NCBI RefSeq assembly: GCF_023330685.1
Contig: NZ_CP097128.1
Coordinates: 3,472,001-3,536,000, forward strand
From: Conexibacter sp. DBS9H8
GTDB lineage: Bacteria; Actinomycetota; Thermoleophilia; Solirubrobacterales; Solirubrobacteraceae
Direction: 5' to 3'
DNA length: 64,000 bases
The notes beneath the pieces were generated by a model. The model ran no database searches and was not told the origin of the DNA. It saw only the letters and a list, made by a program, of their open reading frames with translations. The translations under genes were made by a program, and so were the position numbers. This document shows, piece by piece, positions 8,764-28,578 of this stretch. The stretch's first letter is position 1. Each line of letters starts with the position of its first letter.

Positions 8764-8897
8764 GCCTGGATCCACCGTTGGGTCGGGGTTGGGAGCGAAG
8801 ATCGGGCTCAATTGGCCTGGCCCGGCGGCCGGTCACCGGCGGATGAGCCGATCACGGAAATCCCCCAGCTCTGATAGCCCACTGATGGCGGGTCTAA

Positions 8898-10542: not shown

Positions 10543-10586
10543 CTAAATGCAGTCGACATGGAGACCGTCAAAACACCCGTGGCGGC

Positions 10587-11248: not shown

Positions 11249-12256
11249 TCACGGGTTCGGCGCGGACGTGAGCTGCCGTTGGACGATGGCAGCGGCAGAG
11301 GCGGGATCCAATGTGCGGGCGGCGACCCGGTCCAAAACCTGTCGAGCGACCGGGTCGTTCGCGGCTATCGTCTCAAGGTCATTGCGGAGCCGGCGAACCG
11401 CGATCGCAACCACGGCAGTGGTCAGATTGTGCCGCCTCCGGTCCCGCAAAGTGCCCGCTGCGTCAAGGTGGGCCCGGTGCTCCGCGATCGTGTCGAGCAG
11501 CATCGCAACGCCGACGCCGCTGGCGGCTTGGGTGAGGAGGACCGGGACCTGCCAGCCCTGCCTGGATCGGAGAGCGAGGACGCCCTTGATCTCTCTCACC
11601 ATCGTTTGGGTCAGCGGGTGGTCCGCCTTGTTGACCACGATGACGTCGGGGATCTCCATCACTCCCGCCTTCAGCGCCTGGACCGAATCTCCAGAGCCTG
11701 GCACCAGCACTAGGACTACCGTGTCAGCATGGTGAACGATGTCGACCTCCGCCTGACCGACCCCTACCGTTTCAACGAGCACCGAGTCACAGCCCGACGC
11801 ATCCATCAGGAGTACAGCCTGCAGTGCCGCCTCCGCCAATCCCCCGAGTGCCCCGCGGTTGGCCATGCTGCGGATGAACACTCCGGGGTCGAGGAAGTGC
11901 TCCGTCAGCCGGATCCTGTCCCCGAGCAGCGCCCCGTTCGTGAAAGGGCTCGACGGATCGACACTCAATACCGCGATTGTGCGGTCGCGCTCGCGTTCGA
12001 GCTTGGTGACCGCGCCCACCAGCGTCGACTTGCCAACCCCGGGGGGCCCGGTGAATCCCACGATCGCCGCGTTCCCGGTATGCGGATAGACAATCCGTAC
12101 GATTTCACAGCCCTCGGGCGTGCCGGCCTCCACGAGGGTGATCGCACGGGCCAGCGCAGAGCGGTCGCCCTCAAGGAGACGTCGAGCCAGACCGCTGGCT
12201 CGCGTGGACGCTGAGGCTGTCTCCACAGTGTCAGCGGGCAGTGACGGCGTGCTCAA
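11249..12256 (-). CDS. meaB: MeaB/ArgK-type GTPase, chaperone of a B12-dependent mutase
   Basis: A 335-residue G3E-family GTPase. It shows the Walker A GFTGPPGVGKSTL (about residue 67-79), SVDPSSPFTNGALLGDR (switch/base-specific region of MeaB), the Walker B-like VLVETVGVGQAEVD, and NKAD as the G4 motif. MeaB proteins load adenosylcobalamin onto acyl-CoA mutases and rescue inactivated enzyme. It is the last gene of the mutase operon and overlaps the 3' end of the MmgE/PrpD gene by 26 bp, so its client is almost certainly the mutase at 17560-19299. A helical C-terminal dimerisation region (LRNDLETIAANDPVARQ) is present. Length is usual for the family. Confidence 0.93.
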   Translation of the reverse strand: MSTPSLPADTVETASASTRASGLARRLLEGDRSALARAITLVEAGTPEGCEIVRIVYPHTGNAAIVGFTGPPGVGKSTLVGAVTKLERERDRTIAVLSVDPSSPFTNGALLGDRIRLTEHFLDPGVFIRSMANRGALGGLAEAALQAVLLMDASGCDSVLVETVGVGQAEVDIVHHADTVVLVLVPGSGDSVQALKAGVMEIPDVIVVNKADHPLTQTMVREIKGVLALRSRQGWQVPVLLTQAASGVGVAMLLDTIAEHRAHLDAAGTLRDRRRHNLTTAVVAIAVRRLRNDLETIAANDPVARQVLDRVAARTLDPASAAAIVQRQLTSAPNP

Positions 12257-13637
12257 TCACACGCTTGAGCTGCCCGACGTTCGGCAGATCGCGCAGATCC
12301 CGGGTCAAGGTGGTCAGCTGCGTGGAGAGCTCGGGATCGACGAGATGTTCGAGCAACGTCGCGGCTTTGCGTTCGACGTCCGCCCGAGTCATCGGACAGG
12401 CTCGGCTGCCCTTCGGGTCCTCCACCTCCGCTTGGAACGTCTCCCCGCCTTCAGTGCTCACCGTGACTCGGGTGGGGAAGTGGGCGGGATAGATCCGATC
12501 CATCACAGCGTCATGCTCAAAGGTGACCAGACCGGCAATGCTCAGCAAATCTGGATCGGCCGGCCGCTTGCCGAGGAAATGCTGCACGGTGACATCTCCG
12601 TCGGCAAGCGCCGCGGCAAGGCAGAACTGAAGGCTCATCTGCGCCTCAACCCGGCCGCCGTTGCCGCTGTATTCATAACCGCACTGAAGTAGCACGCTTT
12701 CGGCGTTCGCCACGTTGATCTGGGTCACCGCATGAGGTTCGAGACCGTGCCTCTCACGCAGCGCAAGGAGCGCGTCGATCGACGAATGGGCGCTCCCACA
12801 GCATGGGTATGGCTTGATCGCGACCGAGTCAAGATCAAACCGGTGGCCAAGATCCCGGGTTAGCTCGCCAAACCGCGGAGCGTCAGAGATCGCGCTAAGC
12901 AGACCGCCGTCTGCGGCGTCAAGCGAGAGCAGCGGGCCTTTGAAGCCGCGCTTGCCCAGGCTAGCCGCGAGAATCCCGGCCTCAGCGGCCCGGCCAGCGT
13001 GGAAGCATTTTGTCATCGCCCCCTCAGCGCTGAAGGAGAACGTGCCCGCGGCCGTCGACGCGGCCACCCCGAAGGCACGGGCAAGTTGCTCGGCGTCCAA
13101 CCGAAGTAACCGGCCGGCGGCCGCTGTCGCTCCAAACGGACCGACGAGACCCGTGATATGCCAGCCCCGCGACCGTACCGAGCTACCGCCGGCGGCGATG
13201 CTCACCCTCCCCATGACGTCGTAGGCTGCGACCAAGGTCTCAAGGAGCTCGTGACCGGTCATCTTGTCATCGGCGAGGGCCAAGATGACGGGCGCGATCA
13301 CCGCCCCCACATGGGTTTTGCCCGCGGGGAGGTAGTCGTCGAATTCAAAACCGTGCGCACCCGCCGCATTGATGTTCGCGGCCCCGGCCGGATGCACATC
13401 CGCGCCCGACGCCCAGCTGATCGCAGACCCGCGCCGATACCGGGCTCTCACCTCGGAGTCGATCATCTGCACGGCGTCCTGAGTGGCACCGAACAGGCCG
13501 TTGGCGATCGCGTCAAGCAGCACAGAGCCGGCTCGCTGAACCGTCTCGTCGGAGAGCTGGTCGGCGTGAATCCCGCTCAACACATGTTGGGCGAGGATCT
13601 CGGTCGGAGTGTGGGTATGGGGCGGAGCGATGCTCAT
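12231..13637 (-). CDS. MmgE/PrpD-family protein (2-methylcitrate dehydratase-like)
   Basis: A 468-residue member of the MmgE/PrpD fold. It has the N-terminal helical domain with SVLLDAIANGLFGATQ, the conserved HGFEFDDYLPAGKTHVGAVI near residue 115, the AFGVAASTAAGTFSF helix and KPYPCCGSAHSSIDAL in the lid region. Family members include 2-methylcitrate dehydratase, cis-aconitate decarboxylase and iminodisuccinate epimerase, so dehydration or decarboxylation of a poly-carboxylate is possible. The exact reaction cannot be called. Placement between the aldehyde dehydrogenase and MeaB makes it part of the mutase pathway and, together with the VOC protein, recalls propionate-type metabolism without proving it. 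Confidence 0.85.
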   Translation of the reverse strand: MSIAPPHTHTPTEILAQHVLSGIHADQLSDETVQRAGSVLLDAIANGLFGATQDAVQMIDSEVRARYRRGSAISWASGADVHPAGAANINAAGAHGFEFDDYLPAGKTHVGAVIAPVILALADDKMTGHELLETLVAAYDVMGRVSIAAGGSSVRSRGWHITGLVGPFGATAAAGRLLRLDAEQLARAFGVAASTAAGTFSFSAEGAMTKCFHAGRAAEAGILAASLGKRGFKGPLLSLDAADGGLLSAISDAPRFGELTRDLGHRFDLDSVAIKPYPCCGSAHSSIDALLALRERHGLEPHAVTQINVANAESVLLQCGYEYSGNGGRVEAQMSLQFCLAAALADGDVTVQHFLGKRPADPDLLSIAGLVTFEHDAVMDRIYPAHFPTRVTVSTEGGETFQAEVEDPKGSRACPMTRADVERKAATLLEHLVDPELSTQLTTLTRDLRDLPNVGQLKRVIEHAVTAR

Positions 13638-13647
13638 ACTGGCGACC

Positions 13648-15111
13648 TCACGTCTTCAGCAGGAACGGGTCACGAGCCGCCCCCGAGGTGTCGATCATGG
13701 TGTTCTTGATCCGGGTGTAGCTCTCGATGGCCTCGGTGCCGCGTTCGCGCCCATAACCGCTATGTCCGAACCCACCGAACGGCGCCTGCGTTGCAGTTGC
13801 CCGGTAGGTGTTCACCCAGACCATTCCGCAGGCGAGCTCACGTGAGACGCGATGTGCGCGGCTCAGGTCGGAGGTCCAGACCCCTCCGGCCAAACCAAAC
13901 GGGGTTGCGTTGGCGATCTCGACCGCCTCCGCCTCAGTCGTGAAGCTCTGAATACTGAGGACCGGTCCGAAGATCTCCTCCTGGGCAACCCGCATCTCCG
14001 AGCTCACGCCCGTGAGCACGGTCGGCGGGACGAACAGAGGCTCGCCGTCGACGTTGGCCTCAGCTCCACCCAATGCCAGGGTCGCTCCTTCTGACACAGC
14101 ATCACTGATGGCTTGGCGAATGCGCTCGTATTGCGGCACGGTGGCAATCGGCCCCATCTCCGTGGCTTCGTCCAGCGGGTCACCGAGCTTGATCACAGAC
14201 GCCCGGTTCAACACACCCTCTGTGACCTCGTCGTAGACGCGCTCGTCGACGAGCAGCCGAGAGCCCGCGACACACGTCTGCCCGGCAGCTGCGAAGATGC
14301 CCGCAACGGCGCCGGACACGGCGTTCTCAATCACCGCATCGGCGAAGATGACGTTCGCCGATTTCCCGCCGAGCTCGAGGGCGACCGGGATCAGCGACTC
14401 GGCCGCAGCATGGGCGATCGCCCGCCCGACGCCCACGCTCCCCGTGAAGCTGACCATGTTGATCTTCGGATGGCTGACCAGTGCCCTGCCGACGTCGGCA
14501 GTCCCCGCCAATACGTTGATCACGCCAGCCGGAAAGCCCGCCTCAGCAACGAGCTGTGCCATCGCCAAGGTGCTCACCGAGGCGAACTCCGAAGGTTTGA
14601 TGACGGCTGTGTTGCCACACGCCAGCGCCGGCGGCAGCTTGTTCGACAGCAACGAGATGGGAGAGTTCCATGCGGTGAGGAGAGCGACCGCGCCGTGCGG
14701 CTCACGCACCGTGTAATTGAGCATGTCGACGTTGTCGAGCTGTTTGGTCTCCCCGTACATCTTGTCCGCGAGCCCGGCGTAGTAGCGGTAGTTGCGTGCG
14801 GCGAAGCGGATCTGATTCCGCGTCTCCCGGATGATCTTTCCGTTGTCGAGGGTTTCGATCTCCGCGAGTTCGTCGGCATCCCGCTCAAGCAGCTCGGCCA
14901 GCCGAAACATGAGTGCGGCGCGAGTGACCCCGCTGGATCTGCGCCATTGCGATGACGCAGCCTGCGCCGCGTTCACTGCGGCGTCGACCTGGCCGGTGTC
15001 GGCGGAGTTGAACTCCGCCCAGGTCCGGCGCGAGTACGGATTCTCGCTGGCGATCGTGGGTCCGTTTCCGTCGACGAATTCGCCGCCGATGTACAGCGAG
15101 AAGCGCTTCAC
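13648..15111 (-). CDS. NAD(P)-dependent aldehyde dehydrogenase
   Basis: A 487-residue ALDH. The general-base region reads VALELGGKSANVIF, and the nucleophile Cys lies in AGQTCVAGSRLLVDE. FTGSVGVG binds the dinucleotide, and EEIFGPVLSIQSF closes the domain. The start is taken as GTG 15111, overlapping the stop of the CaiB gene (GTGA); a longer frame to 15222 only copies antisense sequence. It oxidises an aldehyde to an acid or acyl-CoA. In this operon it may handle a semialdehyde released later in the pathway, which the CaiB transferase beside it could turn into a CoA ester. Confidence 0.92.
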   Translation of the reverse strand: MKRFSLYIGGEFVDGNGPTIASENPYSRRTWAEFNSADTGQVDAAVNAAQAASSQWRRSSGVTRAALMFRLAELLERDADELAEIETLDNGKIIRETRNQIRFAARNYRYYAGLADKMYGETKQLDNVDMLNYTVREPHGAVALLTAWNSPISLLSNKLPPALACGNTAVIKPSEFASVSTLAMAQLVAEAGFPAGVINVLAGTADVGRALVSHPKINMVSFTGSVGVGRAIAHAAAESLIPVALELGGKSANVIFADAVIENAVSGAVAGIFAAAGQTCVAGSRLLVDERVYDEVTEGVLNRASVIKLGDPLDEATEMGPIATVPQYERIRQAISDAVSEGATLALGGAEANVDGEPLFVPPTVLTGVSSEMRVAQEEIFGPVLSIQSFTTEAEAVEIANATPFGLAGGVWTSDLSRAHRVSRELACGMVWVNTYRATATQAPFGGFGHSGYGRERGTEAIESYTRIKNTMIDTSGAARDPFLLKT

Positions 15112-16367
15112 ACCACACCATCCTTCTTCAGCTCGTCGAGTTTCTCGGGGCTGACGTTGAGTAGCTCGCCGAGGACCTCGCCCGCATCGCCGCCGATGAT
15201 CGGGGCGCTGCGGTACTCCCACTCGTGGCTGGTCATGCGGATTGGGTTACCGACGAACTTCAGCGTTCCGCCCAGCTTGTTTTCGATCTCGACGGTCATC
15301 CCGCGCGCCTGAACCTGGGGGTCGGCCAGCGCTTCGTCAAGCCGGTTGACCGGGGCACAGAGTAGGTCAGACGCCATCAGATCGGTCAACCACTCCCCAC
15401 TGGTGCGCTCCAGGAAGACGGCGGCGATCAGCTCCATCAGCTCGGACTGGTGGGCGGCCCTCAACCTGGGCTCACTGAAGCGCTCGTCGGTCAGCCACTT
15501 AGGCTGGTTCATCACCTCGACCAGGCGACCCCAGCTCTTCTGGTCGTACACCGCGATCACGATGTAGGCGTCATCAGCGCACTTGTACGCGGCATAGGAC
15601 GGACTGTGTCCGCCCGACCCCTGCGGCCCGGGTATGGCGCCGTCGAGGAAGTAGTACGCCGAGAAGTACGGGACCATCGCGATCTGTCCATCGAGGAGGC
15701 CGATATCGATGGCCGCAGACGGTGGCCCGTCCTGCTCTCGGTCTCGCAGCGCCGCCATGATCGCAATGACCATCCACATCCCACCCGCGAGATCGGCCAC
15801 CGGAAGACCCATGCGGGCGGGCGGCTGCCCCGGATGCCCGGTCATGCTCATGCCGCCCGACAGCGCCTGGGCGATGAGGTCGACCCCCGGCCGATCGCGG
15901 TACGGGCCGGTCTGCCCGAACGCACTGAGCTGGGCGTAGATCAGGTTCGGATTGACCGCCTTCAGAGCCTCGTAGTCCAGACCGAGACGATCCATGACAC
16001 CGGGACGGAAGTTGTTGAAGCAGACGTCAGCCTTGGCCACCAGCCCCAGGAACAGCTCTCGCCCGACATCGGACTTCAGGTTCAGGGTCATGCTCCGCTT
16101 GTTGCGATTCAGCGCCAGGTAATGGGCGTCCTGACCCTTGTAGTAGTGGCGGACCATTCCGCCCGGGTCGTACCCGGCGTTGGAGCCAGGAGCTTCGATC
16201 TTGATGACGTCGGCGCCCAGGTCGGCCAGCAACATCGTGCAGTAGGGGCCGGCCAAGTGCCATGACAGGTCGAGCACGGTCACGCCCGCCAACGGCCCTC
16301 CGCGAGACCTACCGGAGCCTGGACTCTCGCCCGTCTCCCTCCTTGCGTCTGTGCTTTCGTCAAGCAT
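15108..16367 (-). CDS. CaiB/BaiF family CoA-transferase
   Basis: A 419-residue type III CoA-transferase. The N-terminus has VTVLDLSWHLAGPYCTMLLA and LGADVIKIEAPGSNAGYDPG, the CoA-binding Rossmann part. The nucleophilic Asp is in MGLPVADLAGGMW. It moves CoA between carboxylic acids through aspartyl-CoA and anhydride intermediates. The ATG at 16367 follows GGAGGCTGT, and the gene overlaps the B12-binding-subunit gene by 8 bp. In the operon it could activate the pathway acid at the expense of a downstream CoA ester, which would make the neighbouring ligase dispensable. Confidence 0.92.
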   Translation of the reverse strand: MLDESTDARRETGESPGSGRSRGGPLAGVTVLDLSWHLAGPYCTMLLADLGADVIKIEAPGSNAGYDPGGMVRHYYKGQDAHYLALNRNKRSMTLNLKSDVGRELFLGLVAKADVCFNNFRPGVMDRLGLDYEALKAVNPNLIYAQLSAFGQTGPYRDRPGVDLIAQALSGGMSMTGHPGQPPARMGLPVADLAGGMWMVIAIMAALRDREQDGPPSAAIDIGLLDGQIAMVPYFSAYYFLDGAIPGPQGSGGHSPSYAAYKCADDAYIVIAVYDQKSWGRLVEVMNQPKWLTDERFSEPRLRAAHQSELMELIAAVFLERTSGEWLTDLMASDLLCAPVNRLDEALADPQVQARGMTVEIENKLGGTLKFVGNPIRMTSHEWEYRSAPIIGGDAGEVLGELLNVSPEKLDELKKDGVV

Positions 16368-16794
16368 GCAACAGCCTCCTCCGCTCGGATACGGCCTCCT
16401 TGAGGGCCACAACGATTCCGCTGACCGGGGACTCGACGTTGAACACCAGGGCAACACCCGCCTGGAGCATCTCCTGTTCGTCATCGGGCGGTATGAGCCC
16501 GCCCACGACAACGAGCGGCGGCGTGTCAACCGGCTCGAGCAGGTCAAGGATCGCCTTGGAGAAATGACGGTGCCCACCGGCCAGGCTGCTCAGACCGATG
16601 ACGTCAGCGTCCTCCTGCAGTGCGGCGGCAACCACCTGCTCAGGCGTCCTGCGCAGACCGAGGTAGATGACTTCGAATCCGGCATTGCGGAGTCCGTGCG
16701 CGACCACGTGAACCCCGCGCTCGTGGGCGTCGAGTCCTGCCTTGGCGAGGATCACCCGGCCGCGAGGGCCGCTGAGGCCGTCATGCATCGCCAT
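16360..16794 (-). CDS. B12-binding small subunit of an acyl-CoA mutase
   Basis: A 144-residue cobalamin-binding Rossmann domain. ILAKAGLDAHERGVHVVA contains the DxHxxG motif that supplies the lower-axial His ligand; VIGLSSLAGGH (SxL motif) and VVVGGLIPPDDE (GG motif) complete the site. It matches the size of the small subunit of ICM- or archaeal MCM-type mutases. Start ATG 16794 overlaps the crotonase gene by 14 bp; a second ATG at 16788 is also possible. It should pair with the large subunit at 17560-19299, from which it is separated only by the crotonase gene. Confidence 0.93.
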   Translation of the reverse strand: MAMHDGLSGPRGRVILAKAGLDAHERGVHVVAHGLRNAGFEVIYLGLRRTPEQVVAAALQEDADVIGLSSLAGGHRHFSKAILDLLEPVDTPPLVVVGGLIPPDDEQEMLQAGVALVFNVESPVSGIVVALKEAVSERRRLLHA

Positions 16795-17563
16795 GCTCCT
16801 TGTCGCTCGTGGTGACGAAATCTGTGAGCGCTCGTGCCCGCTCCGCAGACCGCGTCGATTCCAGGCGCAGCCGATCCAAGGGCGCCCAGAACTGCTCCGA
16901 CCGGTCAGCTGGCTTGGCGAACTCATCGAGGATGTGCTTGTGCGAGCGCGCGAGCGCTGGGCTGGCGGCAACCCAGTTGTCAACTCGATCGTCCACCGAG
17001 GCCGCCTCGACCAGCTGATCGATCAGGCCGACTCGCAGCGCCTCAGATGCCTCAAGACGGTGGCCGCACATGAAGAGTCGCTTCGCCACCGACGGGCCGA
17101 GGATCGCCTGAAACCGCTCCAGCGAGCGTGGCTCGTAGACGGTGCCCAAGTTCGCTGCGGGCAGCCAGAACGTCGCATCGGCGGTGGCGATGCGGTGATC
17201 GCAGGACATGGCAAGGTCGAGTCCGGCCCCGGCGCAGTATCCGCGCACCAAGGCAAGCGTGGGAACCGGGCATGCGATAAGCGCAGCTGTGACGGCAAAG
17301 AGGATCTGGGACGGAGGCGGCGTCTCGGACTTTGCGATCTGAAGCGCCCGGATGTCGAACCCTGCGCTGAAGGCCTTCGTTCCAGCCCCCGTGACGGCCA
17401 GGAGCCTGAGCGTGGGGTCGGCCGAGGCGGCACGGACAATCTCAAGCAGCTGTCCGAGCTGCTCAGGATGCAGCGCGTTGTGCACCGCCGGCCGATTCAG
17501 GGTGACGGTCAGCACCTCACGCGCACGACGTGTGAACAGCATGTCCGCAGTCTGGGTGCTCAT
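16781..17563 (-). CDS. Crotonase-superfamily protein lacking the two hydratase glutamates
   Basis: A 260-residue enoyl-CoA hydratase/isomerase-fold protein. The oxyanion hole is clear (FSAGFDIRAL, then VRGYCAGAGLDLAMSCDHR). However, the two catalytic Glu positions of ECHS1-type hydratases are changed: GCELA-type Glu reads GLDLA, and the second, normally FGQPE-type, reads FWLPAANLG. It therefore may be an isomerase, hydrolase, decarboxylase or C-C lyase rather than a hydratase. It sits between the mutase large and B12 subunits and overlaps the former by 4 bp, so it probably acts directly on the mutase substrate or product. Confidence 0.85.
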   Translation of the reverse strand: MSTQTADMLFTRRAREVLTVTLNRPAVHNALHPEQLGQLLEIVRAASADPTLRLLAVTGAGTKAFSAGFDIRALQIAKSETPPPSQILFAVTAALIACPVPTLALVRGYCAGAGLDLAMSCDHRIATADATFWLPAANLGTVYEPRSLERFQAILGPSVAKRLFMCGHRLEASEALRVGLIDQLVEAASVDDRVDNWVAASPALARSHKHILDEFAKPADRSEQFWAPLDRLRLESTRSAERARALTDFVTTSDKEHGDA

Positions 17564-19299
17564 GAGTACATGGCCTCACCGAACTGCTCCCGCAGGACGT
17601 GACAGATCTGGCCGATGGTCGCGTAGGCCAAGGCACACTCGATCATCGGCGGGATCAGGTTCGCGCCCGGATCCCGGGCCGCCTGTTTCAGAGCGGTCAG
17701 AGTTGCGGCCACCAGACGGTCGTCGCGCTCGCGCCGGAGCGCCATCAACTCGGCTTTCTGGCGTTCCTCGGCTGTGGCCAAGAGCGCCGGGTCGTACTCG
17801 GGCGTGCGATTGACTTCCACGTCGATCTCCTGGTCAGACGTGTAGCCGTTGACACCAACCCAGACTTCTTGTCCATTTTCCAACTCGCTCTGATGCTCCC
17901 ACGCGGATTGCGCGATGGCGGCGCGATAGTGTCCGCTCTCGACGCCCCAGATAGCACCGCCGCCTTTGGCAACCGTCTCCATCTCGGCCAGGGTCCGTTC
18001 TTCGATCTCGCGCGTCAGCTTCTCAACCGCGTAGGAACCACCCAGCGGGTCGAGCGTCCGTCCCAGCTTGGCCTCGTGAAAGATGATCCGCTTGATATCG
18101 CGGCTGACCTGCTGGGCCTCGATGCTGTGGCCGAGACCGAGCGGCTCGTCGAACGGCGACAGACCCCCGGTCACCTCACCTGAAGCCGTTGCCTGGATCA
18201 TCGCTTCAATCGTGGCTCGCACGATGTTGTTGATGTACCGGTGGGCGGTCATCTTCGTATATGCGTTTCCCCAGGCGTGCTCGCCTCCCCGCAGCAGACA
18301 GGTCCGATCCAGCTTCGCACCGAACTCCTCCCGCATGATGCGTGCCCAGATGCGTCGCGCCGCACGGGGGGCAGCAACTCCCGGGAGGAAGGCGAGCGAC
18401 GAGTCGCCGAAGCCGCGAAACGTGAAGCGCTGGACGAAGCGATCGACATCCAGCCCGGCCTCGATCCCGAGCTGAACGTACTCACGCGCGTTGCAGAAGC
18501 CGAAGGCGAGGGACTGTTCGGTGCTCGCTCCGGCGTAACGCATGTGCTCGGCGCAGATGCTGATGCTGTTGGCCCGCGGCATGTACTCGTCCATGAACAC
18601 GATGGTGTCCCGGACCAATCGCAGTGACTCACGCACCGGAAAGATGTAGAGCCCGCGGGCGACAAATTCTTTGAGAATGTCGTTCTGGGGCGTGCAGCGG
18701 AGCGCCTGGGTGCTCACTCCCCGCTTTGCCGCAAGCGCGCAGTAGAACGCGATGTAGACGCTCGCCGGCGCGTTGATCGTCCAGTTGGACGCGACCTTAT
18801 CCAAACCGTGGTCGCCCGTGAACGACTCGTAAATGATCTCGAAATCACGTAGCGAATCGATCGCGACCCCAACCTGGCCGACCTCACCTGCGGCACGCGG
18901 GTCGTCAGAGTCCCACCCGAGTTGGGACGGCAGATCGGAGGCGATGTTCGCCCCGCCAATCCGCATCCCCTGGTCGCGCATGCTGCGGTAGTAGTCACGG
19001 CAGTCCACGGAGGCGCCGAATCCCGAGTACCGGCCGGCCCGGTGGCGGTGCATTGTCTCTCCGCCGAGCACCTGTGCCGGTGTGGGGTACAGCCAACTGG
19101 TGAACGGGTACTCCCCCGGCAGGCCGACGTCACGGAGAAAATCGAAATCCTCGAGGCCGAGAGGGGAATTTGGCTCCGCGGTCACCTCGTGCGGCTGTAC
19201 TCCCATGCGCTTGACGGACGGCTCCAGGGTGTCTGTGCGCCACCGCTCCACGCGGACGCACAAGTCGGACGTGCTGCTTGTGCTGCTGGTGGTGCTCAC
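17560..19299 (-). CDS. Divergent B12-dependent acyl-CoA mutase, large (substrate-binding) subunit
   Basis: A 579-residue TIM-barrel subunit of the methylmalonyl-CoA mutase family. Shared landmarks are YPFTSWLYPTPAQ, GRYSGFGAS (Tyr as in MCM), GWDSDDPRAAGEVGQVGVAID, WTINAPASVYIAFYCALA, QNDILKEFVARGLYIFP (Arg as in MCM) and ISICAEHMRYAGAS (His kept). The stretch that normally reads FFNAHNDFFEE is FRGFGDSSLAFLP here, and the HTQTAG region reads GGEHAWGNAYTKMTA, so the active site is strongly remodelled. IcmA has Phe/Gln in place of the Tyr/Arg pair, so this is not a standard ICM; nor is it a standard MCM. It has no B12 domain of its own and should use the subunit at 16360. It likely rearranges a carbon skeleton of an unidentified acyl-CoA. 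Confidence 0.9.
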   Translation of the reverse strand: MSTTSSTSSTSDLCVRVERWRTDTLEPSVKRMGVQPHEVTAEPNSPLGLEDFDFLRDVGLPGEYPFTSWLYPTPAQVLGGETMHRHRAGRYSGFGASVDCRDYYRSMRDQGMRIGGANIASDLPSQLGWDSDDPRAAGEVGQVGVAIDSLRDFEIIYESFTGDHGLDKVASNWTINAPASVYIAFYCALAAKRGVSTQALRCTPQNDILKEFVARGLYIFPVRESLRLVRDTIVFMDEYMPRANSISICAEHMRYAGASTEQSLAFGFCNAREYVQLGIEAGLDVDRFVQRFTFRGFGDSSLAFLPGVAAPRAARRIWARIMREEFGAKLDRTCLLRGGEHAWGNAYTKMTAHRYINNIVRATIEAMIQATASGEVTGGLSPFDEPLGLGHSIEAQQVSRDIKRIIFHEAKLGRTLDPLGGSYAVEKLTREIEERTLAEMETVAKGGGAIWGVESGHYRAAIAQSAWEHQSELENGQEVWVGVNGYTSDQEIDVEVNRTPEYDPALLATAEERQKAELMALRRERDDRLVAATLTALKQAARDPGANLIPPMIECALAYATIGQICHVLREQFGEAMYS

Positions 19300-20462
19300 C
19301 GGTCTTGCTCCCGATATCCGAGCGCGTACTCGGCGATCATGGCGGTATGCAATTCGTTGTTCCCTTCAACGATCTGGAAGACCTTCGCGTCGCGAAAGTA
19401 CCGGGCGACCGGATAATCCTCAGAGATTCCATAGGCTCCGTGGATCTGCACGGCGCTGGTCGCAGCGGCCATGGCGACGTTGGAGGCATGCATCTTGGCA
19501 AGGCTGGCCCTGCGTCGCGGACGCTCAATGCCGGCATCCTTATCAGCCGCGAGATCCGCGATCAGGTGGCGTGCGGACTCCACTCCCGTGACCATCTCGG
19601 TGATCTTGCCCTGAACCAGTTGGTAGCGGCCGATCTGCTGACCCATCACCGTGCGTTCGGTGGCGTATTTGACTGACGCATCGAGGCTCGCCTGGGCGAG
19701 TCCGAGTGCGCGGGCCGCGACCGACAGCCGGCCAGTCTCCACGGCGGCCATCGCCACCGCGTAGCCCTGCCCCTCCTCCCCGACGCGGTTGGCCGCCGGA
19801 ACGAACACGTCATCGAGCACCAGGTCGCCGGTTGACAGAGGGCGGAAGCCGAGCTTGTTCTTGTAGGGCACCCGGCCCAGGCCATCACTATCGGCCTCCA
19901 CAACAAACGCGCAGACCCCCTGGCGTCCAGTGGTCCCTTCGAGCCGCGCGAACGTGAGGAACCAGGCGGCGTGTTCGAGCATGCTGATCCATGCCTTGGC
20001 CCCCCTAATCACGTATCCCCCGTCGATATGGCGGCAGGTTGTGGTCATATCAGCCACCGCAGTGCCGCTGCCAGGTTCGGTGACGCCAGCCCCGGCGAAT
20101 GTCTCACCGGCGACGAGCGGCCGGATGTAGGTCTGCTTCTGCGCCTCGCTGCCATACCGGAGAATCCCGCCTCCCACGAGCCCGCTCGGCATCGACACCG
20201 CGAGCCCGATGATGTGACAGACGCGCGACAACTCCTCGATCAGGCTCGCGAAGGAGACCCAGTCCAGACCCGAACCCCCATATTGCTCCGGGACCGCCGC
20301 CCCGAGCCATCCGGGACCCGCCGTCGCTCTGATCAGGTCGGCCGGGAGCCGCTCCTCGCGATCATACGTGCCCACCTGTGGCGCGACTTCCTTGCGGGCA
20401 AAGTCGCGCGCGCTCTCAATCAGAACCGCGCGCTCTCGACTGTCGAGAACCGCGGTGCTCAT
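19296..20462 (-). CDS. Acyl-CoA dehydrogenase
   Basis: A 388-residue acyl-CoA dehydrogenase. It has FAGAGVTEPGSGTAVADM for the flavin/substrate site, GAKAWISMLEHAAWFL, the ERTVMGQQIGRYQLVQ helix and VFQIVEGNNELHTAMIAEY, in which Glu sits at the classical catalytic-base position. Start ATG 20462 is chosen because it overlaps the stop of the epimerase gene (ATGA); a longer open frame to 21005 only mirrors the epimerase gene. It probably desaturates an acyl-CoA just before or after the rearrangement performed by the adjacent mutase, whose ATG overlaps its stop. Confidence 0.92.
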   Translation of the reverse strand: MSTAVLDSRERAVLIESARDFARKEVAPQVGTYDREERLPADLIRATAGPGWLGAAVPEQYGGSGLDWVSFASLIEELSRVCHIIGLAVSMPSGLVGGGILRYGSEAQKQTYIRPLVAGETFAGAGVTEPGSGTAVADMTTTCRHIDGGYVIRGAKAWISMLEHAAWFLTFARLEGTTGRQGVCAFVVEADSDGLGRVPYKNKLGFRPLSTGDLVLDDVFVPAANRVGEEGQGYAVAMAAVETGRLSVAARALGLAQASLDASVKYATERTVMGQQIGRYQLVQGKITEMVTGVESARHLIADLAADKDAGIERPRRRASLAKMHASNVAMAAATSAVQIHGAYGISEDYPVARYFRDAKVFQIVEGNNELHTAMIAEYALGYREQDR

Positions 20463-21364
20463 CTCGCGACCTGCTGCTGGGACACGAGTGCGTCCCTTGC
20501 CCAGCCAAGAAAGCTGCGAGGCTCGATGCCGAACTCGTCCCGGATGCGCGAGAAATCGATGAGCGAAACGTGAGGGATACGTTGGTCCTCTGGACCCAGC
20601 TCGATTTCGACGTCGGGGTGGACTGACCGAATGACGTCCGCCAACTGCCCGATGGTGGAGAACTCGCCGCCGGCGTTGTACACGTCGTACTGAGGCGCTG
20701 GCGCGGTCGCCAGGGTGGCAAACTCCACGCCGACGTCGTCGACGTTGATCATGCACGAGTCGGCGTTGGGTCCGAACGGGCATGTGGCGTGCCCGGTCAA
20801 CGCCGTCTCGAGCATCGCGTTGACCGGTGCGGAGAACCCTGTCTTGCGACCGGGCCCCCACACGGTTGAAATCCGCAGGCCCACGCAGCGGATCCCCAGT
20901 GTCGCCTGGTAGGCGGCAGCCGTGGCCTCGTTTAATTGCTTGTGGTAGCCGTAGAGGAAGAACGGCTGGCCGTGGTCCTCCTCGGTGACGGCGTGTTCGC
21001 CCCATTGAGGCTGGTCTCCGTACACCGCTATCGAGCTCGCATAGACAAACCGCCGGACCCCCGCCTGCGCTGCCGCGTCTAGGACGTTCTGCATCCCGAC
21101 CACGTTGATCTCGAGGCCGGCGTTCAGGTCGGCGAGGGTGTCGGAGGCGAGCAGAGCCGCCAGATGGATCACCGCGTCTGGCTTGACCTCATCGATCGCT
21201 TTCCGTACCGCCTGCTTGTTGCTGATGTCGCCTTGGATCGCCGCTCCGGCGAAGCTGTCCGGAATGAAGCGATCGAAGGCGACCGGCTCATGTCCCAGCT
21301 CGGCCAGGGCCTTGCAGGTGCTGCGCCCGATAAATCCGGCACCACCGGAGACCAGCACGATCAT
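20459..21364 (-). CDS. NAD-dependent epimerase/dehydratase (extended SDR)
   Basis: A 301-residue extended short-chain dehydrogenase. The N-terminal VSGGAGFIGRS is the GxxGxxG NAD site, and AVIHLAAL and VYASSIAVYGDQ (Ser) precede FLYGYHKQLNEA, which gives the YxxxK catalytic pair. Members act on nucleotide sugars, but many oxidise or dehydrate small hydroxy substrates. Here the setting in an acyl-CoA operon argues for a dehydrogenase or dehydratase of a pathway alcohol. It overlaps both neighbours by 4 bp. Confidence 0.85.
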   Translation of the reverse strand: MIVLVSGGAGFIGRSTCKALAELGHEPVAFDRFIPDSFAGAAIQGDISNKQAVRKAIDEVKPDAVIHLAALLASDTLADLNAGLEINVVGMQNVLDAAAQAGVRRFVYASSIAVYGDQPQWGEHAVTEEDHGQPFFLYGYHKQLNEATAAAYQATLGIRCVGLRISTVWGPGRKTGFSAPVNAMLETALTGHATCPFGPNADSCMINVDDVGVEFATLATAPAPQYDVYNAGGEFSTIGQLADVIRSVHPDVEIELGPEDQRIPHVSLIDFSRIRDEFGIEPRSFLGWARDALVSQQQVAR

Positions 21365-23040
21365 CGTGTGACCTCGCTCAACTTCGCCAGATCCGGTCCG
21401 CCAGGGCTTCGCCCAGGGAAGTAGCCCTCGACCCTGTCGCGATCTACAGCCTCGGGATCACGGTCGCACGGGTCGCCGTAGCCGCCGCCGCCGGGTGAAC
21501 GAACCTCTAGGCGATCGCCTCTCTTCATCACTACTCCAGTGCATTTGGTGGTGTGTGGCGGAATAAAAGCTTGGCCCTCGAGCTCCCACTCGATCTCGGT
21601 CATTGCCGCATCGTGGCCACCCATCACGCCCCGGGGAGCGAAGCGGCCGCGATCAGCCAGAACGGTGGACGTCGCTTCATCGGCGAGCATCCGGACACTG
21701 AGATCCACGCCAAATCCGCCCCGGTGCCGGCCCAGGCCGGCCGAGTCCTCGCGAAGTGCATAACGCTCGAACAGCACCGGGTTCTGGCTCTCCAGCACCT
21801 CGACAGGTGAGGAGCGGGCAATGCTGATGGGGGGCGGAGCATTCGTCAGCCCGTCACCGTGCTCGTGGCCTCCGTAGCCGCCGCCCGTAAAGCAGAACAT
21901 GATGAACGGCCGGTCACGGCGTTCGTCGTAACCGGAGATCGTAAAGTTGCAAATCGTGCCGTACGCCCCGGCTCCGATCCGCCCCGGCAGGATTGGTTGC
22001 AATGCCCCAAACACCGCATCGCCGATCCGGACAGTTACCTCAGAAGCGCAGCCGCTCACCGCCCGGGGATACGCGGCGTCGAGGAAAGTGCCCAGGGCAC
22101 GCTTGACTTCCAGCGGCCGGAAGCAACCTCCGTTGTTGGGCACCTCGGGGAAGATGTGCTTCATGTAGAGGTAGACCGCCGATGCCGCGGCAGCGTAAGA
22201 GGTATTCAACGGGCCGCGCACCGGGGGAGAGCTCCCCGCGAAGTCGAACGTCATGAGTTCGCCGGCCACGGTGATCGTGATCGCACACGTCAAGGGCTCC
22301 TGGTTCACACCGTCACTGTCGAGATGTTCGACATGGCTATAGGTGCCATCGGGGACCGTCGCGATCATCGCCCGCATCTGCGCCTCTGAGCGATCAGCAA
22401 GCTGATTAATGGCTTCACGCACCGTGCCGGCGCCGTAACGGGCAAGGATCGCTCGCAGGCGTGTCTCCCCCACCGCCATGGCGCTCAACTGCGCACGTAG
22501 GTCGGCCTCACGCTCGTGCGGAATGCGGATGTTCGCCATCAACAGCCGGCGCACGCCAGGCTGCAGAACTCCCCGCTCATACAGCTTGATCGGAGGTACC
22601 CTGATGCCTTCCTGGAATACCTCGGTGGCGGTGGGGGCGAACCCGCCTGGAACCATTCCGCCGATGTCGGTCCAGTGCGCGGTGTCGGCCAGGAAGCAGA
22701 ACAGGCGACCATCGACGAAGATCGGCTTCACGAGCTTCATGTCCATGAGGTGGGTGCCCGAGGTGTAGGGGTCGTTGATCATCACGACGTCACCCTCGTG
22801 CCATTCGTCGATGTCGGCCAGCGCTGCCTCAACGGCGAACTGCATCGAGCCGACGAACAGCGGCAACCCGGTCTCTCCCTGGGAGATCAGCTCGCCGTCG
22901 ACATCATAGATCCCACTGGACCGGTCACGAGACTCCGAGACGATCGGGCAGAGCGATGTCCGCTCAATCGTGATGTCCATCTCATTGCAGACCTGCTGCA
23001 AGCCGTTGGTAATCACCGTCAGTGTCGTCGTGTCGATCAC
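21361..23040 (-). CDS. Hydantoinase B/oxoprolinase-family protein, operon 1
   Basis: A 559-residue HyuB-family subunit. The start MIDTTTLTVITNGLQQVCNEM, the ISQGETGLPLFVGSMQFAV region, DVVMINDPYTSGTHLMDMKL and the glycine-rich HEHGDGLTNAPP segment are typical. The C-terminal SPGGGGYGDP is a family hallmark. With HyuA these enzymes couple ATP hydrolysis to opening of cyclic imides, 5-oxoproline or hydantoins; relatives are acetone and acetophenone carboxylases. No gamma subunit gene of the acetone carboxylase type is present. It overlaps both neighbours by 4 bp, so it belongs to the mutase operon. Confidence 0.9.
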   Translation of the reverse strand: MIDTTTLTVITNGLQQVCNEMDITIERTSLCPIVSESRDRSSGIYDVDGELISQGETGLPLFVGSMQFAVEAALADIDEWHEGDVVMINDPYTSGTHLMDMKLVKPIFVDGRLFCFLADTAHWTDIGGMVPGGFAPTATEVFQEGIRVPPIKLYERGVLQPGVRRLLMANIRIPHEREADLRAQLSAMAVGETRLRAILARYGAGTVREAINQLADRSEAQMRAMIATVPDGTYSHVEHLDSDGVNQEPLTCAITITVAGELMTFDFAGSSPPVRGPLNTSYAAAASAVYLYMKHIFPEVPNNGGCFRPLEVKRALGTFLDAAYPRAVSGCASEVTVRIGDAVFGALQPILPGRIGAGAYGTICNFTISGYDERRDRPFIMFCFTGGGYGGHEHGDGLTNAPPPISIARSSPVEVLESQNPVLFERYALREDSAGLGRHRGGFGVDLSVRMLADEATSTVLADRGRFAPRGVMGGHDAAMTEIEWELEGQAFIPPHTTKCTGVVMKRGDRLEVRSPGGGGYGDPCDRDPEAVDRDRVEGYFPGRSPGGPDLAKLSEVTR

Positions 23041-25085
23041 GCCCCACCTCCGGTCACATCGATCACCAAGTTGCCGAGCCGGTCTACCTCGATGGCACAG
23101 CCAGCGTCGATCACCGTTGTCCCGTCATCCTGCTCCACCACCGCGGGTCCGCCGAACCGCGCCCCGATCGGGATCAGCTCTCGCCTCAGGATCGTCGCGT
23201 CGAGCCAGCTCTCACCGAAGGCCACCTGCCGGGTTCCTGTGACAGCGCCCTGAAGATCTGCCGCGGGGCGGCCGGCACGGGGGATCAATTCCAAGTCCAC
23301 CGGCTGTCCTTCGCCGATGACGGCACACCTCACGTTCACGAGCTTTCTGGCGATCGCGCCCGGAGCCGCGAAGGCGAAGGAGGCCTCGTGCAACTCCTCA
23401 AATCGAGTCTCCAGGGCCTCCCAATCATCTCCGTCGAGGAATGGCACCTCGACGACGTGGGTCTGGCCGTCGTACTGCATGTCCAGCACGCGCCGAACAC
23501 GGATCTTCTCCGGCTCGATTCCCTGGTCGTGGAGCAGAGCCAGTCCTTCGACCGATAGCCGTTCGGCGATCGCCGTGACCTCTTGCACCTCAACCGCGGC
23601 TGTAAGACGGTTGACGGTCTGCACGTAGTCGTAGCGCGACTGGGCCACCAGCGTCCCGAGCGCAGAGGTGATGCCCAGCCGGTAGGGAACGATGACGGTC
23701 GGAATCGCCAGTTCGCGGGCGATCTCAACTGCGTTGAGCGCTCCCCCGCCGCCAAAGGCGAAGTACCCGAAATCTCGCGGATCGTGTCCGCGGGACAGAA
23801 GCACAGAGCGCACAGCGCCCGCCATCAGGTCGTTGGCCACGCGAATGATGGCTTGCGCCGACTGAACGGCGTCGAGACCCAGATGCTGTCCGACGTCGCG
23901 TTGCATGGCGGCCTCCACCAACTCCACGTCAACGGCTCCGGACATGCCGATGAGGTGTTCCGGATTCAGTCGGCCCAACAGGAGATTTGCGTCGGTGAGC
24001 GTCGCCCGGTCTCCGCCACGGCCGTAACAGACTGGCCCGGGCGTCGCACCGGCACTCTCGGGGCCGACCTGCAGGAGGCCCTGGCTGGAGATCCGGGCGA
24101 TGCTGCCTCCACCGGCGCCGATCGTGTGAATATCGATCATCGGAAGCTGGACCGGCACGTTGTAGGCCAGCTCGTGACGCGATGTCGTGATCGCCTCACC
24201 ATCGACGATCAGGGCGACGTCGAAGCTCGTGCCACCGACGTCGGCGGTGACACATCGCATGTGCCCGGTCTCCGAGCAGATCCGCGCAGCGGCCGTCACC
24301 CCAGCGGCTGGTCCGCTCAGGACGGTCTGAACCGGAGCTCGTGACGCGATCCGCTCGGTGGTCACTCCACCGTTTGATCTCATGATCAGAAGCTCTTTCT
24401 GATATCCGGCGGCAGCCAACCGCGCGACCAGGTGGGAGAAGTATTTGTCGATCGCGGGCTGCACGTATGAGCTCACCGCCGCCGTGCTGAGCCGCTCGAA
24501 CTCTCGATGTTCCGCGAGGATCTCGTGAGAGGCGGTCACATAGTCGGTCGGCCAGAGCTCACGTATCACCGCAGCCGCGCGGCGTTCGTGCACCGGGTTC
24601 GCGTAGCAGTGCAAAAACATGACCAGGACGGATTCGGCTCCGAGCCTCAGCAGATGTCTCGCCGCGTCGCGTACGCCGTCCTCATCAAGCGGGATCACGA
24701 CTTCCCCCGCCGCATTCACACGTTCATCAACCTCAACGCGGAGATGGCGCGGGATGAGCGGAACGTACTCCCCGGTCAGGCCGTAGTTGTGGGGCCGAGT
24801 TCGGGGTCCGATCTCCATGGTATCCCGAAAGCCCCGTGTGGTGATCAAACCGCAAACGGCGCCTTTGCGCTCGAGAACCGCGTTTGTCCCGACCGTGGTG
24901 CCGTGTGAAATGAGGTCGACGGTCGACAGGTCGTCATATCCGAGTGACGAGAGGCCTGCCATGAATGCGGCTGATTGATCGGCCACGCTCGTCGGGACCT
25001 TGCTCGTCCTGACCTCGCCCGCGTCGTTGATCGAGATGATGTCCGTAAACGTGCCACCGACATCGACTCCAATGGCCAGCGTCAT
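23037..25085 (-). CDS. Hydantoinase A/oxoprolinase-family protein, operon 1 (first gene)
   Basis: A 682-residue HyuA-family subunit with ASKHA ATPase features. GVDVGGTFTDIISI is phosphate loop 1, ISHGTTVGTNAVLERKG follows, RCVTADVGGTSFDVAL is loop 2, and YFAFGGGGALNAVEIARE lies near the adenosine site. It probably forms the ATP-using half of a complex with the HyuB protein encoded next. Start ATG 25085 lies 57 bp downstream of a 14-bp palindrome and a good promoter. A longer in-frame reading begins inside IS1380 copy 3 and is not real. Whether the substrate is a cyclic amide or a ketone to be carboxylated cannot be told from sequence. Confidence 0.9.
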   Translation of the reverse strand: MTLAIGVDVGGTFTDIISINDAGEVRTSKVPTSVADQSAAFMAGLSSLGYDDLSTVDLISHGTTVGTNAVLERKGAVCGLITTRGFRDTMEIGPRTRPHNYGLTGEYVPLIPRHLRVEVDERVNAAGEVVIPLDEDGVRDAARHLLRLGAESVLVMFLHCYANPVHERRAAAVIRELWPTDYVTASHEILAEHREFERLSTAAVSSYVQPAIDKYFSHLVARLAAAGYQKELLIMRSNGGVTTERIASRAPVQTVLSGPAAGVTAAARICSETGHMRCVTADVGGTSFDVALIVDGEAITTSRHELAYNVPVQLPMIDIHTIGAGGGSIARISSQGLLQVGPESAGATPGPVCYGRGGDRATLTDANLLLGRLNPEHLIGMSGAVDVELVEAAMQRDVGQHLGLDAVQSAQAIIRVANDLMAGAVRSVLLSRGHDPRDFGYFAFGGGGALNAVEIARELAIPTVIVPYRLGITSALGTLVAQSRYDYVQTVNRLTAAVEVQEVTAIAERLSVEGLALLHDQGIEPEKIRVRRVLDMQYDGQTHVVEVPFLDGDDWEALETRFEELHEASFAFAAPGAIARKLVNVRCAVIGEGQPVDLELIPRAGRPAADLQGAVTGTRQVAFGESWLDATILRRELIPIGARFGGPAVVEQDDGTTVIDAGCAIEVDRLGNLVIDVTGGGA

Positions 25086-25141
25086 GGATGGACGACCCTG
25101 TGGATTCTCACGTCCTCGACCCTCTCTCCGAACCACGATCC

Positions 25142-25184
25142 GGTACGATCGTACCACCATACAGTACAACTGCTGGGCGGTCAA
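25142..25184 (-). promoter_or_regulatory. Promoter and operator of the mutase (hyu) operon
   Basis: Read on the minus strand, TTGACC (25179-25184) and TATGGT (25156-25161) are separated by 17 bp, a near-consensus sigma-70-type promoter. The perfect palindrome GGTACGATCGTACC (25142-25155) abuts the -10 box and would cover the transcription start, the classical place for a repressor. The IclR-family gene at 26923 is the nearest regulator candidate. IS1380 copy 3 begins 20 bp upstream of the -35 box, so the promoter itself is intact. Confidence 0.65.
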
Positions 25185-25204
25185 GTGCGGATGCGCTGAT
25201 TTAG

Positions 25205-26849
25205 CCCTGATCCACCGATGGGCTGGGTCAGAGTTCTTTTTTGCGGTCGCTGGGCCGGTTCTTGCTTGATGGGAGGTGCTGGCGGGGTTGAACGGGGTGC
25301 CAGGTCTCTCGGCTATCGGGTCCAAAGCGGTTTTCGGGGTCGGTTTGGGGCGGCGGTGATCGCGCCCGGGGTGAGCGGAAGGTCGGCGGGAGTTCAGTGA
25401 GGCCGGGACCGGCCGGTCGGCCGGTCAGGCGGCTGGGAGTGCGCGTATCCGTGCGAGTGCGGCGAGGTAGTCGCCGTGCCAGGGCCAGCGGGCGGGGAGG
25501 TGCAGGGTCCAGCCGCGTGCGTGTCGGGTCAGCCGTCCGGTGATCTGGATCAGTCGGCGCCGCAGGGTGCGGGCGGCGCGGATGGTGCTGTTGGGCAGCC
25601 CGATGATCTGGGTCCATCTGAGCAGGTTGTGCGCGAGTGCGGCGAGCACGGTCCAGGCGGCGTTCGCGTAGAAGTGACCGGAGGGAAAGTGCTGAAGAGC
25701 CTGGTCTTTGAGGTCGGCGATGACCTGCTCCACGACGGCGTGGTCACGGTGTTCGGCCTCGACCAGGGCGAGCGCGTCGGTGCGGTTGGTGATGAAGCAG
25801 AAGTGTCGCCAGTCCGGCCAGAGCATGAGCTGCTCAGGGTCAGTCAGGCGGGTGCGGCGCACGATGAGACGCCGGTTGTTGTAGAGAGTCTCGGCGATCT
25901 GGGCTTCACCGCCGTCGGGGTACTCAATCGACTGCCAGTCACCATCTGCGATCCCATGGATCGCTGTGGTCACAGCCTTGATGTTGCGCACCCCGATGGA
26001 GTACTGCCAGCCCTTGGCCTCCAGCAGCTCGAACACCTTCATGTTCCAGAACCCCGAGTCTGCGCGCACGAGCTTTTGCCCGGTCGCACCGGCGCGTTCG
26101 ACGCGGGCGATCAGTTCCTCACAGAACCGTTTGACACCCTTTTGCGTGTTCGCTGATCCCTTGCGCAGTCGGATGTGCAGCGCCTCGCGGGTATCGGCCC
26201 GGGTCGCCAGCAGCGGGTGATATCCAAACAGCTTGGTGTACCCGTATCCCGCTCCCTGTTTCAGTGGGCCGCACACCTCCCCGACGAAGCTGTCGATGTC
26301 GATCACCAGCCGGGCGTGGCCGGGGCCCGCGCCGGCCCGCCACGCACGCGCCAGCGTGTCGCCGAGCAGCTTGTCGAGCTGGCGAACATGCCCGAAGGTG
26401 AACGCGCGCAGGAACGTGCCCAGCGTCGAGGGCGCCGGCATCCACCCGCCGAGCAGCCGTCCGGTCCGGCCCGCCCGCAGCACCTGACAATCATCGATGC
26501 AGTCCGCGCCGAGGACCATCGCGAACAGGACCGCCATGACCTTGCGGCCCGCGTTCGCCGCCCCCGGACGGTCAGACCGCAGAGAGATCAGCCGGCCGGC
26601 GAGTGACTCGACCCCAAGGCGCCGCGTGAGCGTGCTGACCAGCGCGATCCCGGCGTCAGACACCGCCCGCTCATCATCAAAAACGACCTGGACGCCGTCC
26701 AGTCCGACCGTCGTGGCATCGTTCACCATGAAGGTGACCTCCTGATCGCAGGCCGCGACCGCCGGAATCGGTCGCTTTTAACCTGCTCAGGAGGTCATTC
26801 TTCACACGACCCCGGACAGAACCACCCCACAGAATCAGTGGATCAGGGC
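25205..26849 (-). mobile_element. IS1380-family insertion sequence, copy 3 (inverted)
   Basis: The third 1,645-bp copy, in the opposite orientation to copies 1 and 2. It is flanked by TTAG at 25201-25204 and 26850-26853, which is CTAA on the element's coding strand. It separates the IclR regulator gene from the promoter of the mutase operon; without it the gap would be about 190 bp. Ends, leader hairpin (26736-26796) and tail hairpin (25407-25426) match the other copies. Confidence 0.95.
25425..26729 (-). CDS. IS1380-family transposase, copy 3
   Basis: A 434-residue transposase identical to the products of the other two copies, transcribed toward the mutase operon. The reading frame is intact. 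Read-through from this element could add transcription to the hyuA promoter region, though the hairpin over its stop may limit that. Confidence 0.93.
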   Translation of the reverse strand: MVNDATTVGLDGVQVVFDDERAVSDAGIALVSTLTRRLGVESLAGRLISLRSDRPGAANAGRKVMAVLFAMVLGADCIDDCQVLRAGRTGRLLGGWMPAPSTLGTFLRAFTFGHVRQLDKLLGDTLARAWRAGAGPGHARLVIDIDSFVGEVCGPLKQGAGYGYTKLFGYHPLLATRADTREALHIRLRKGSANTQKGVKRFCEELIARVERAGATGQKLVRADSGFWNMKVFELLEAKGWQYSIGVRNIKAVTTAIHGIADGDWQSIEYPDGGEAQIAETLYNNRRLIVRRTRLTDPEQLMLWPDWRHFCFITNRTDALALVEAEHRDHAVVEQVIADLKDQALQHFPSGHFYANAAWTVLAALAHNLLRWTQIIGLPNSTIRAARTLRRRLIQITGRLTRHARGWTLHLPARWPWHGDYLAALARIRALPAA

Positions 26850-26922
26850 TTAGGCAGGGTCCAGCCTGCCTTTCGACCGTAGAACCGGGGGCGAGGTGTC
26901 GTCAAGCGGTGCTGGGGGCCGG

Positions 26923-28569: not shown

Positions 28570-28578
28570 CACGCGCCG

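Follow-up and report, generated by a model that had tools for sequence, protein, structure and literature searches.

The 64,000-nucleotide stretch of Conexibacter sp. DBS9H8 analysed here (the window; contig NZ_CP097128.1, positions 3,472,001 to 3,536,000 of a 3.64-Mb genome held on a single contig) carries eleven co-directional genes on its minus strand. From position 25085 down to 11249 these are hyuA, hyuB, a short-chain dehydrogenase/reductase (SDR) or epimerase gene (epi), an acyl-CoA dehydrogenase gene (acdh), the gene for the large subunit of a B12-dependent acyl-CoA mutase (mutL), a crotonase gene (ech), the gene for the B12 subunit, caiB, an aldehyde dehydrogenase gene (aldh), prpD and meaB. 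The original prediction, made from the sequence alone, had described a catabolic operon in which neighbouring genes overlap by 4–26 bp or are separated by 10 bp, and re-reading of the junctions, with starts refined by Shine–Dalgarno position, agreed with this: nine of the ten overlap, mostly by 4 bp. The overlap is 4 bp at hyuA/hyuB, hyuB/epi, epi/acdh, acdh/mutL, mutL/ech and caiB/aldh, about 8 or 14 bp at ech/B12, 8 bp at B12/caiB and up to 26 bp at prpD/meaB (TTG start, no clear Shine–Dalgarno sequence), and the single gap, of 10 bp, lies between aldh and prpD. As judged by this spacing, the eleven genes are probably co-transcribed. A sigma-70-like site (TTGACC-17-TATGGT; 25156..25184, minus strand) is located upstream of hyuA, but is weak evidence for a promoter because the region 10400–26000 holds one such site against 1.9 expected by chance. 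An open reading frame (ORF) at 10347–11252, considered as a twelfth gene after meaB, was discarded; it belongs to no family, has a third-position GC content of 0.69 and is probably spurious.

Pfam and NCBIfam gave strong E-values for all eleven families named in the prediction, and the key motifs are intact: DAHERG (DxHxxG) in the B12 subunit, GPPGVGKST in MeaB, QTC in the aldehyde dehydrogenase and VEG in the acyl-CoA dehydrogenase. The catabolic character of the cluster was also supported. We think it somewhat probable that the operon serves the breakdown of a compound entering metabolism as a 2-substituted succinate and processed via a CoA ester, the mutase, decarboxylation and β-oxidation, in a reaction order that we infer.

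The mutase large subunit (mutL; 17560..19299, minus strand; PF01642, E 2e-116) is as divergent as had been proposed, with at most 44% identity in 398 other genomes of the class and 39% in plasmids. Relatives of 44–65% identity were found in genomes of the phylum and in a wider collection of genome contigs, where a single-protein query gave no match and an alignment-based scan recovered them. In a 126-row tree, the window protein, a homologue from Marmoricola and 60 other rows formed one clade (clade X; SH-aLRT 100), which was also monophyletic in a careful 33-row tree (100/100 support). Its members include Smithella sp. SCADC, Desulfosarcina alkanivorans, other Desulfobacterota, Chloroflexota and Geothermincolaceae. 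The derived marks of the clade, namely an insertion replacing the RxWTxRQ loop, TPQNDILKE and DEPLGLG[HW]S, are all present in the window protein. Residues Tyr89, Gln197, Arg207, His244 and Glu370 of methylmalonyl-CoA mutase (MCM) are kept, and the HxQ pair (H328/Q330) and N366 are lost in clade X; retention of Tyr89, Arg207 and His244 together with loss of H328, Q330 and N366 points to a substrate that bears a carboxylate and a bulky substituent. Among the rows compared, Glu in place of Tyr243 (MCM numbering) was seen only in the window and Marmoricola proteins, and Ser in place of Phe117 in the same two and otherwise only in L048, a locus just outside clade X. In the window protein this Glu is residue 251. 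A structure model of the subunit confirmed the MCM fold, with low confidence exactly in the clade-specific loop (residues 38–93).

Clade X mutases share a contig with glycyl radical enzymes of the AssA/MasD type in Smithella sp. SCADC, Ca. Solincola and a Desulfobacteraceae metagenome-assembled genome (MAG). The gene order in Smithella is B12–mutL–MeaB–PrpD–activase–MasD, and its glycyl radical enzyme scores 1208 bits against the (1-methylalkyl)succinate synthase MasD 9o8u; a MasD relative in Ca. Solincola (1118 bits against 9o8u) lies ~8 kb from the mutase, and a PF02901 enzyme in the Desulfobacteraceae MAG ~11 kb from it. The label "LAO/AO transport" ATPase is an old annotation of MeaB. An ATPase so labelled, both mutase subunits and an MmgE/PrpD protein are found in the alkylsuccinate synthase (ass) cluster of Desulfoglaeba alkanexedens (PMC7180275). 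In one scan of mutase loci, a PrpD gene was near 28 of 50 clade X loci and 0 of 28 others, a crotonase gene near 24 of 50 and 1 of 28, and HyuA or HyuB near none.

The Marmoricola locus (L072; MAG RYN_199) comprises mutL–ech–B12–caiB–meaB–prpD, six of the window's eleven genes, with identities to the window of 65% for MutL, 45% for the crotonase, 61% for the B12 subunit, 59% for CaiB, 42% for MeaB and 27% for PrpD. It differs from the window in that meaB and prpD are swapped and HyuAB, the SDR and the aldehyde dehydrogenase are not nearby. The module is found directly behind DctP–DctQ–DctM, with a thiolase and an acetyl-CoA hydrolase/transferase following; that dicarboxylate uptake feeds the module speaks for a substrate that is a substituted dicarboxylate. 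A search of 376 further genomes of the Marmoricola order gave no other match at E<=1e-130. Since the clade X gene set recurs in alkane degraders and in Marmoricola, its substrate class can be predicted as 2-substituted succinyl-CoA. Members of this clade are usually annotated only as methylmalonyl-CoA mutase; they are now linked to this substrate class and can be recognised by their sequence marks.

The window operon resembles the ass/mas clusters of Smithella sp. SCADC and D. alkanexedens in that MeaB and MmgE/PrpD are encoded next to both mutase subunits, which in Smithella are of clade X. Filing it under the ass/mas pathway of fumarate addition to alkanes was nevertheless rejected, as a glycyl radical alkylsuccinate synthase is not present in the host genome. 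PF02901 had no match there, nor in the Marmoricola genome, and the diacid would therefore not come from fumarate addition of this kind. The host, with three COX1 (heme–copper oxidase) proteins in its genome, is an oxygen-respiring actinobacterium. Further differences from the ass/mas clusters are the added HyuAB, SDR and aldehyde dehydrogenase and the mutase itself, which in the window and Marmoricola branches deeply on its own and has Glu at MCM position 243.

Other clade X loci carry additional genes. A radical SAM–PDZ–DUF512 protein is encoded between the mutase and the B12 subunit in Geothermincolia (L063 11662–13893 and L060 2119–3939), and members of its cluster turn up in ten clade X loci; a long ORF occupies the same place in L059 (6520–8544, also Geothermincolia). 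Four Desulfobacterota operons (L076, L078, L098 and L120) have additional genes in a constant order, for a thiolase, an enoyl-CoA hydratase/3-hydroxyacyl-CoA dehydrogenase fusion, a protein resembling nitronate monooxygenase and a small protein of ~100 aa.

The crotonase-fold protein (16781..17563, minus strand; PF00378) had been placed among the finishing enzymes, a reading that its sequence corrects. In the crotonases of the module the second hydratase Glu is absent and a Tyr stands at the position of the Tyr of E. coli ScpB (NLGxxY or equivalent); in the window protein this Glu is replaced by Ala and the Tyr is kept, and the position of the ScpB His is, as read by eye, a Phe. In ScpB, a methylmalonyl-CoA decarboxylase, this Tyr is Tyr140. 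The window protein thus looks like a decarboxylase of the malonyl-CoA type rather than a hydratase, and probably acts on a substituted malonyl-CoA. The B12 subunit (16360..16794, minus strand; PF02310, TIGR00640 above cut-off) has the base-off/His-on domain, and MeaB (11249..12256, minus strand; PF03308, TIGR00750 above cut-off) is the mutase-protecting GTPase; that both serve the mutase, as had been stated, was supported. CaiB (15108..16367, minus strand; PF02515, E 9e-118) is a family III (CaiB/Frc) CoA-transferase that probably acts on a dicarboxylate; its closest solved structures are succinate–hydroxymethylglutarate and formyl-CoA transferases, as well as benzylsuccinate CoA-transferase. 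The acyl-CoA dehydrogenase (19296..20462, minus strand; PF00441 etc.) has the catalytic motif VEG (Glu present, Tyr lost), and its nearest PDB entries are short-chain/butyryl-type enzymes. The aldehyde dehydrogenase (13648..15111, minus strand; PF00171, E 2e-167) is NAD(P)-dependent and BADH-like, with BADH as its best NCBIfam match, below cut-off, and the extended SDR or NAD-dependent epimerase–dehydratase (20459..21364, minus strand; PF01370, E 3e-39) has weak matches to OleD and erythronate dehydrogenase, both below cut-off.

The MmgE/PrpD-family protein (12231..13637, minus strand; PF03972/PF19305) is a candidate epimerase. Against the PDB, it matched iminodisuccinate (IDS) epimerase at 4e-39 and 2-methylcitrate dehydratase at 2e-5, and a profile of the module PrpDs gave 384 bits for IDS epimerase, 273–342 for proteins of the cis-aconitate decarboxylase type and 103 for 2-methylcitrate dehydratase. 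In a 2025 structural paper, the second diastereomer of (1-methylpentyl)succinate is suggested to come from "an unknown epimerase" (PMC12358834). The PrpD gene beside the mutase is a candidate for this enzyme of anaerobic alkane degradation, and its recurrence offers a concrete, directly testable candidate for the epimerase missing from work on (1-methylalkyl)succinate synthase.

HyuA (23037..25085, minus strand; ~681 aa; PF01968/PF05378/PF19278) is the α subunit of an ATP-dependent hydantoinase/oxoprolinase of the ASKHA type, and HyuB (21361..23040, minus strand; 559 aa; PF02538, E 3e-165) is the β subunit, of Hyd size. Both match N-methylhydantoinase in the PDB (HyuA, E 1e-129; HyuB, E 7e-83). 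The pair is like caprolactamase and N-methylhydantoinase in family and size, but unlike them it scores below the equivalog cut-offs, at 492 (caprolactamase α profile on HyuA) and 315 of 1000 bits. HyuB had no match at E<=1e-170 in 348 other genomes of the class; relatives of at most about 50% identity are found on alphaproteobacterial plasmids in varied neighbourhoods with no common substrate. On a Pleomorphomonas plasmid (L238 3874–10746), a HyuAB relative (49%) adjoins 6-hydroxynicotinate reductase, which suggests a lactamase role in nicotinate breakdown. The original prediction had left HyuAB as either a ring-opening enzyme or a ketone carboxylase. By the published criteria of subunit number and size that separate ATP-dependent hydantoinases from ketone carboxylases (PMC5214803), two Hyd-sized subunits in the order AB, with no third, favour the first option, hydrolysis of a cyclic amide, over carboxylation.

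In the pathway that we propose, HyuAB would use ATP to open a cyclic amide (a lactam, imide or oxindole-like ring), probably yielding the diacid with the help of the SDR and aldehyde dehydrogenase. The MmgE/PrpD protein may epimerise this diacid at the substituent-bearing carbon before the CaiB-type enzyme would put CoA on it. The adenosylcobalamin-dependent mutase MutL/MutS, maintained by MeaB, would then shift the CoA-carbonyl group, producing a substituted malonyl-CoA that the crotonase-fold protein would decarboxylate to a chain-extended acyl-CoA, and the VEG acyl-CoA dehydrogenase would start β-oxidation. The substrate class of the mutase and the decarboxylation are the best-supported parts, and the HyuAB, PrpD and dehydrogenase steps are suggested by their families. 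CoA transfer, rearrangement and decarboxylation would parallel the ScpA–ArgK–ScpB–ScpC cycle of E. coli, but with a mutase from the clade found beside alkylsuccinate synthases. Its operon (scpA–argK–scpB–scpC; Sbm) likewise unites a mutase, a G-protein, a crotonase-fold decarboxylase and a CoA-transferase, but handles unsubstituted succinate with a single-chain mutase and a propionyl-CoA:succinate CoA-transferase, and is without PrpD or HyuAB. The fuller proposal, an aerobic pathway not yet described whose ATP-dependent lactam hydrolase delivers a 2-substituted succinate to an alkylsuccinate-type B12 mutase module with its MmgE/PrpD protein as alkylsuccinate epimerase, is put forward tentatively and as rather doubtful in its entirety. 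Such a pathway would place alkylsuccinate-type mutase chemistry outside strict anaerobes.

Several observations weigh against this interpretation. Co-localisation with MasD is seen for homologues that are 45–50% identical to the window mutase, and the substrate of the window and Marmoricola enzymes may differ, since they form a long-branched sister lineage with a unique Glu at MCM position 243. The neighbourhood counts come from loci (50 clade X, 28 other) that are not phylogenetically independent, clade X loci are not enriched in CaiB relative to the other loci, and the window PrpD is only 23–31% identical to the other module PrpDs. As nearly all clade X loci lack HyuAB, the SDR and the aldehyde dehydrogenase, only the operon itself suggests HyuAB as the source of the succinate.

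In an alternative reading, two neighbouring pathways are co-transcribed with no common intermediate, HyuAB, the SDR and the acyl-CoA dehydrogenase serving a cyclic amide and mutase, crotonase, B12 subunit, CaiB, PrpD and MeaB an imported dicarboxylate. Marmoricola and anaerobes do have the module but no HyuAB with it, and in Alphaproteobacteria there are relatives of HyuAB with no such module, but the 4-bp coupled junctions that link hyuA by way of acdh to mutL and continue beyond it, and the interleaving of acdh and aldh with the module genes, make it unlikely. The second half of the ring-or-ketone choice, a HyuAB that carboxylates a ketone in the manner of acetone or acetophenone carboxylase and feeds a β-keto acid to the mutase, draws on membership of the same protein superfamily (acetophenone carboxylase γ matches HyuA at E 2e-85). 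Genes for γ, α′ or ε subunits are not present, HyuB (559 aa) and HyuA (~680 aa) are Hyd-sized, and the best matches are N-methylhydantoinase and caprolactamase (criteria in PMC5214803), so we regard it as very improbable. The least probable account is that the mutase has one of the established activities, on methylmalonyl-, ethylmalonyl-, isobutyryl- or 2-hydroxyisobutyryl-CoA, and has unusual neighbours. Family membership is certain and Tyr89 and Arg207 are as in methylmalonyl-CoA mutase, but the window MutL has lost the RxWTxRQ loop, the HxQ pair and N366 and falls outside those lineages in the trees, and elsewhere in the host genome there are an MCM of two subunits (L002/L006) and other mutase-family loci (L003, L004 and L005/L007). 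Isobutyryl-CoA mutase is diagnosed by Phe89 and Gln207 in place of Tyr and Arg; the window has Tyr and Arg. Nor were the marks of 2-hydroxyisobutyryl-CoA mutase (Hcm) found: at MCM position 89 the window has Tyr where Hcm has Ile, and at HcmA 117 it has Ala where Hcm has Asp.

A described pathway of similar logic is the anaerobic degradation of indoleacetate (iaa), in which the CoA-transferase IaaL, the mutase IaaGH and IaaF, a dehydrogenase that decarboxylates and bears a GGG motif, take part (PMC8360864), together with a γ-lactamase of the hydantoinase family (PMC5214803). In an actinobacterial version, HyuAB would open 2-oxindole-3-acetyl(-CoA), (2-aminophenyl)succinyl-CoA would be the intermediate handled by CaiB and the mutase, and oxidative decarboxylation of (2-aminobenzyl)malonyl-CoA would fall to the acyl-CoA dehydrogenase. 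The operon has the HyuAB-type lactamase and family III CoA-transferase expected of it, together with a predicted substituted-succinyl-CoA mutase and an acyl-CoA dehydrogenase, and the same six functional classes (HyuA, HyuB, CaiB, both mutase subunits and the dehydrogenase) as the published pathway. An iaa-like operon of Desulfobacterota (L212 1306–10723) holds these classes too, in the order dehydrogenase (GGG)–B12–mutase–CaiB–HyuA–HyuB, and H328, Q330 and N366 are lost in both mutases. The dehydrogenase motif, however, is VEG in the window and GGG in IaaF orthologues and L212. The window mutase is 36% identical to that of L212 and 45–65% to clade X, and an approximately unbiased (AU) test, with one iaa-type reference only, rejected window, L072 and L212 as a clade (p 9e-11). 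On motif and phylogeny, membership of the iaa pathway was rejected. The window also has an extra crotonase, PrpD, SDR and aldehyde dehydrogenase; because IaaF itself decarboxylates, the iaa pathway needs no decarboxylase-type crotonase, and in the window such a crotonase and a normal VEG dehydrogenase would stand in for the IaaF step. We consider the iaa version quite improbable. A literature search combining the operon's gene names found nothing on this operon. The full eleven-gene order was seen in no other examined locus, and the claim of a gene order without a described pathway holds for the whole. It does not hold for the parts: six of the eleven genes recur in Marmoricola, B12–mutL–MeaB–PrpD stands beside MasD in alkane degraders, and the iaa pathway follows similar logic without the operon belonging to it.

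The operon is flanked by near-identical insertion sequence (IS) elements of the IS1380 family, three of which fall inside 23 kb of the window. One lies at about 4094–5750 (plus strand), copy B (8894..10555, plus strand) ends ~700 bp downstream of meaB, and copy C (25199..26857, minus strand; PF13701), inverted with respect to copy B, is ~110 bp upstream of hyuA, with the sigma-70-like site between them. The genome has six near-full-length copies, those in the window with 4-bp CTAA target duplications and the others with GTTA or TTTA. A composite transposon was considered and rejected, as no single target duplication spans the outer IS ends; the separate CTAA duplications indicate three independent insertions, and the operon bears no mark of having moved as such a transposon. 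Between the two directly repeated copies (5626–8763) lie an AMP-dependent ligase, an acyl-CoA dehydrogenase and a 144-aa protein. On the other side, an IclR-family regulator and an SDR (26923–29346), on the operon's strand, are separated from hyuA by copy C, and the IclR protein may once have regulated the operon. Further upstream on the same strand (30872–42593) are genes for 2-oxoacid dehydrogenase E2/E1, an acyl-CoA dehydrogenase, luciferase-like/AtuA-ferredoxin and AtuA (acyclic terpene utilisation) proteins, parts of an ATP-binding cassette (ABC) transporter and a flavin monooxygenase (FMO)-like enzyme, possibly a terpenoid catabolic operon.

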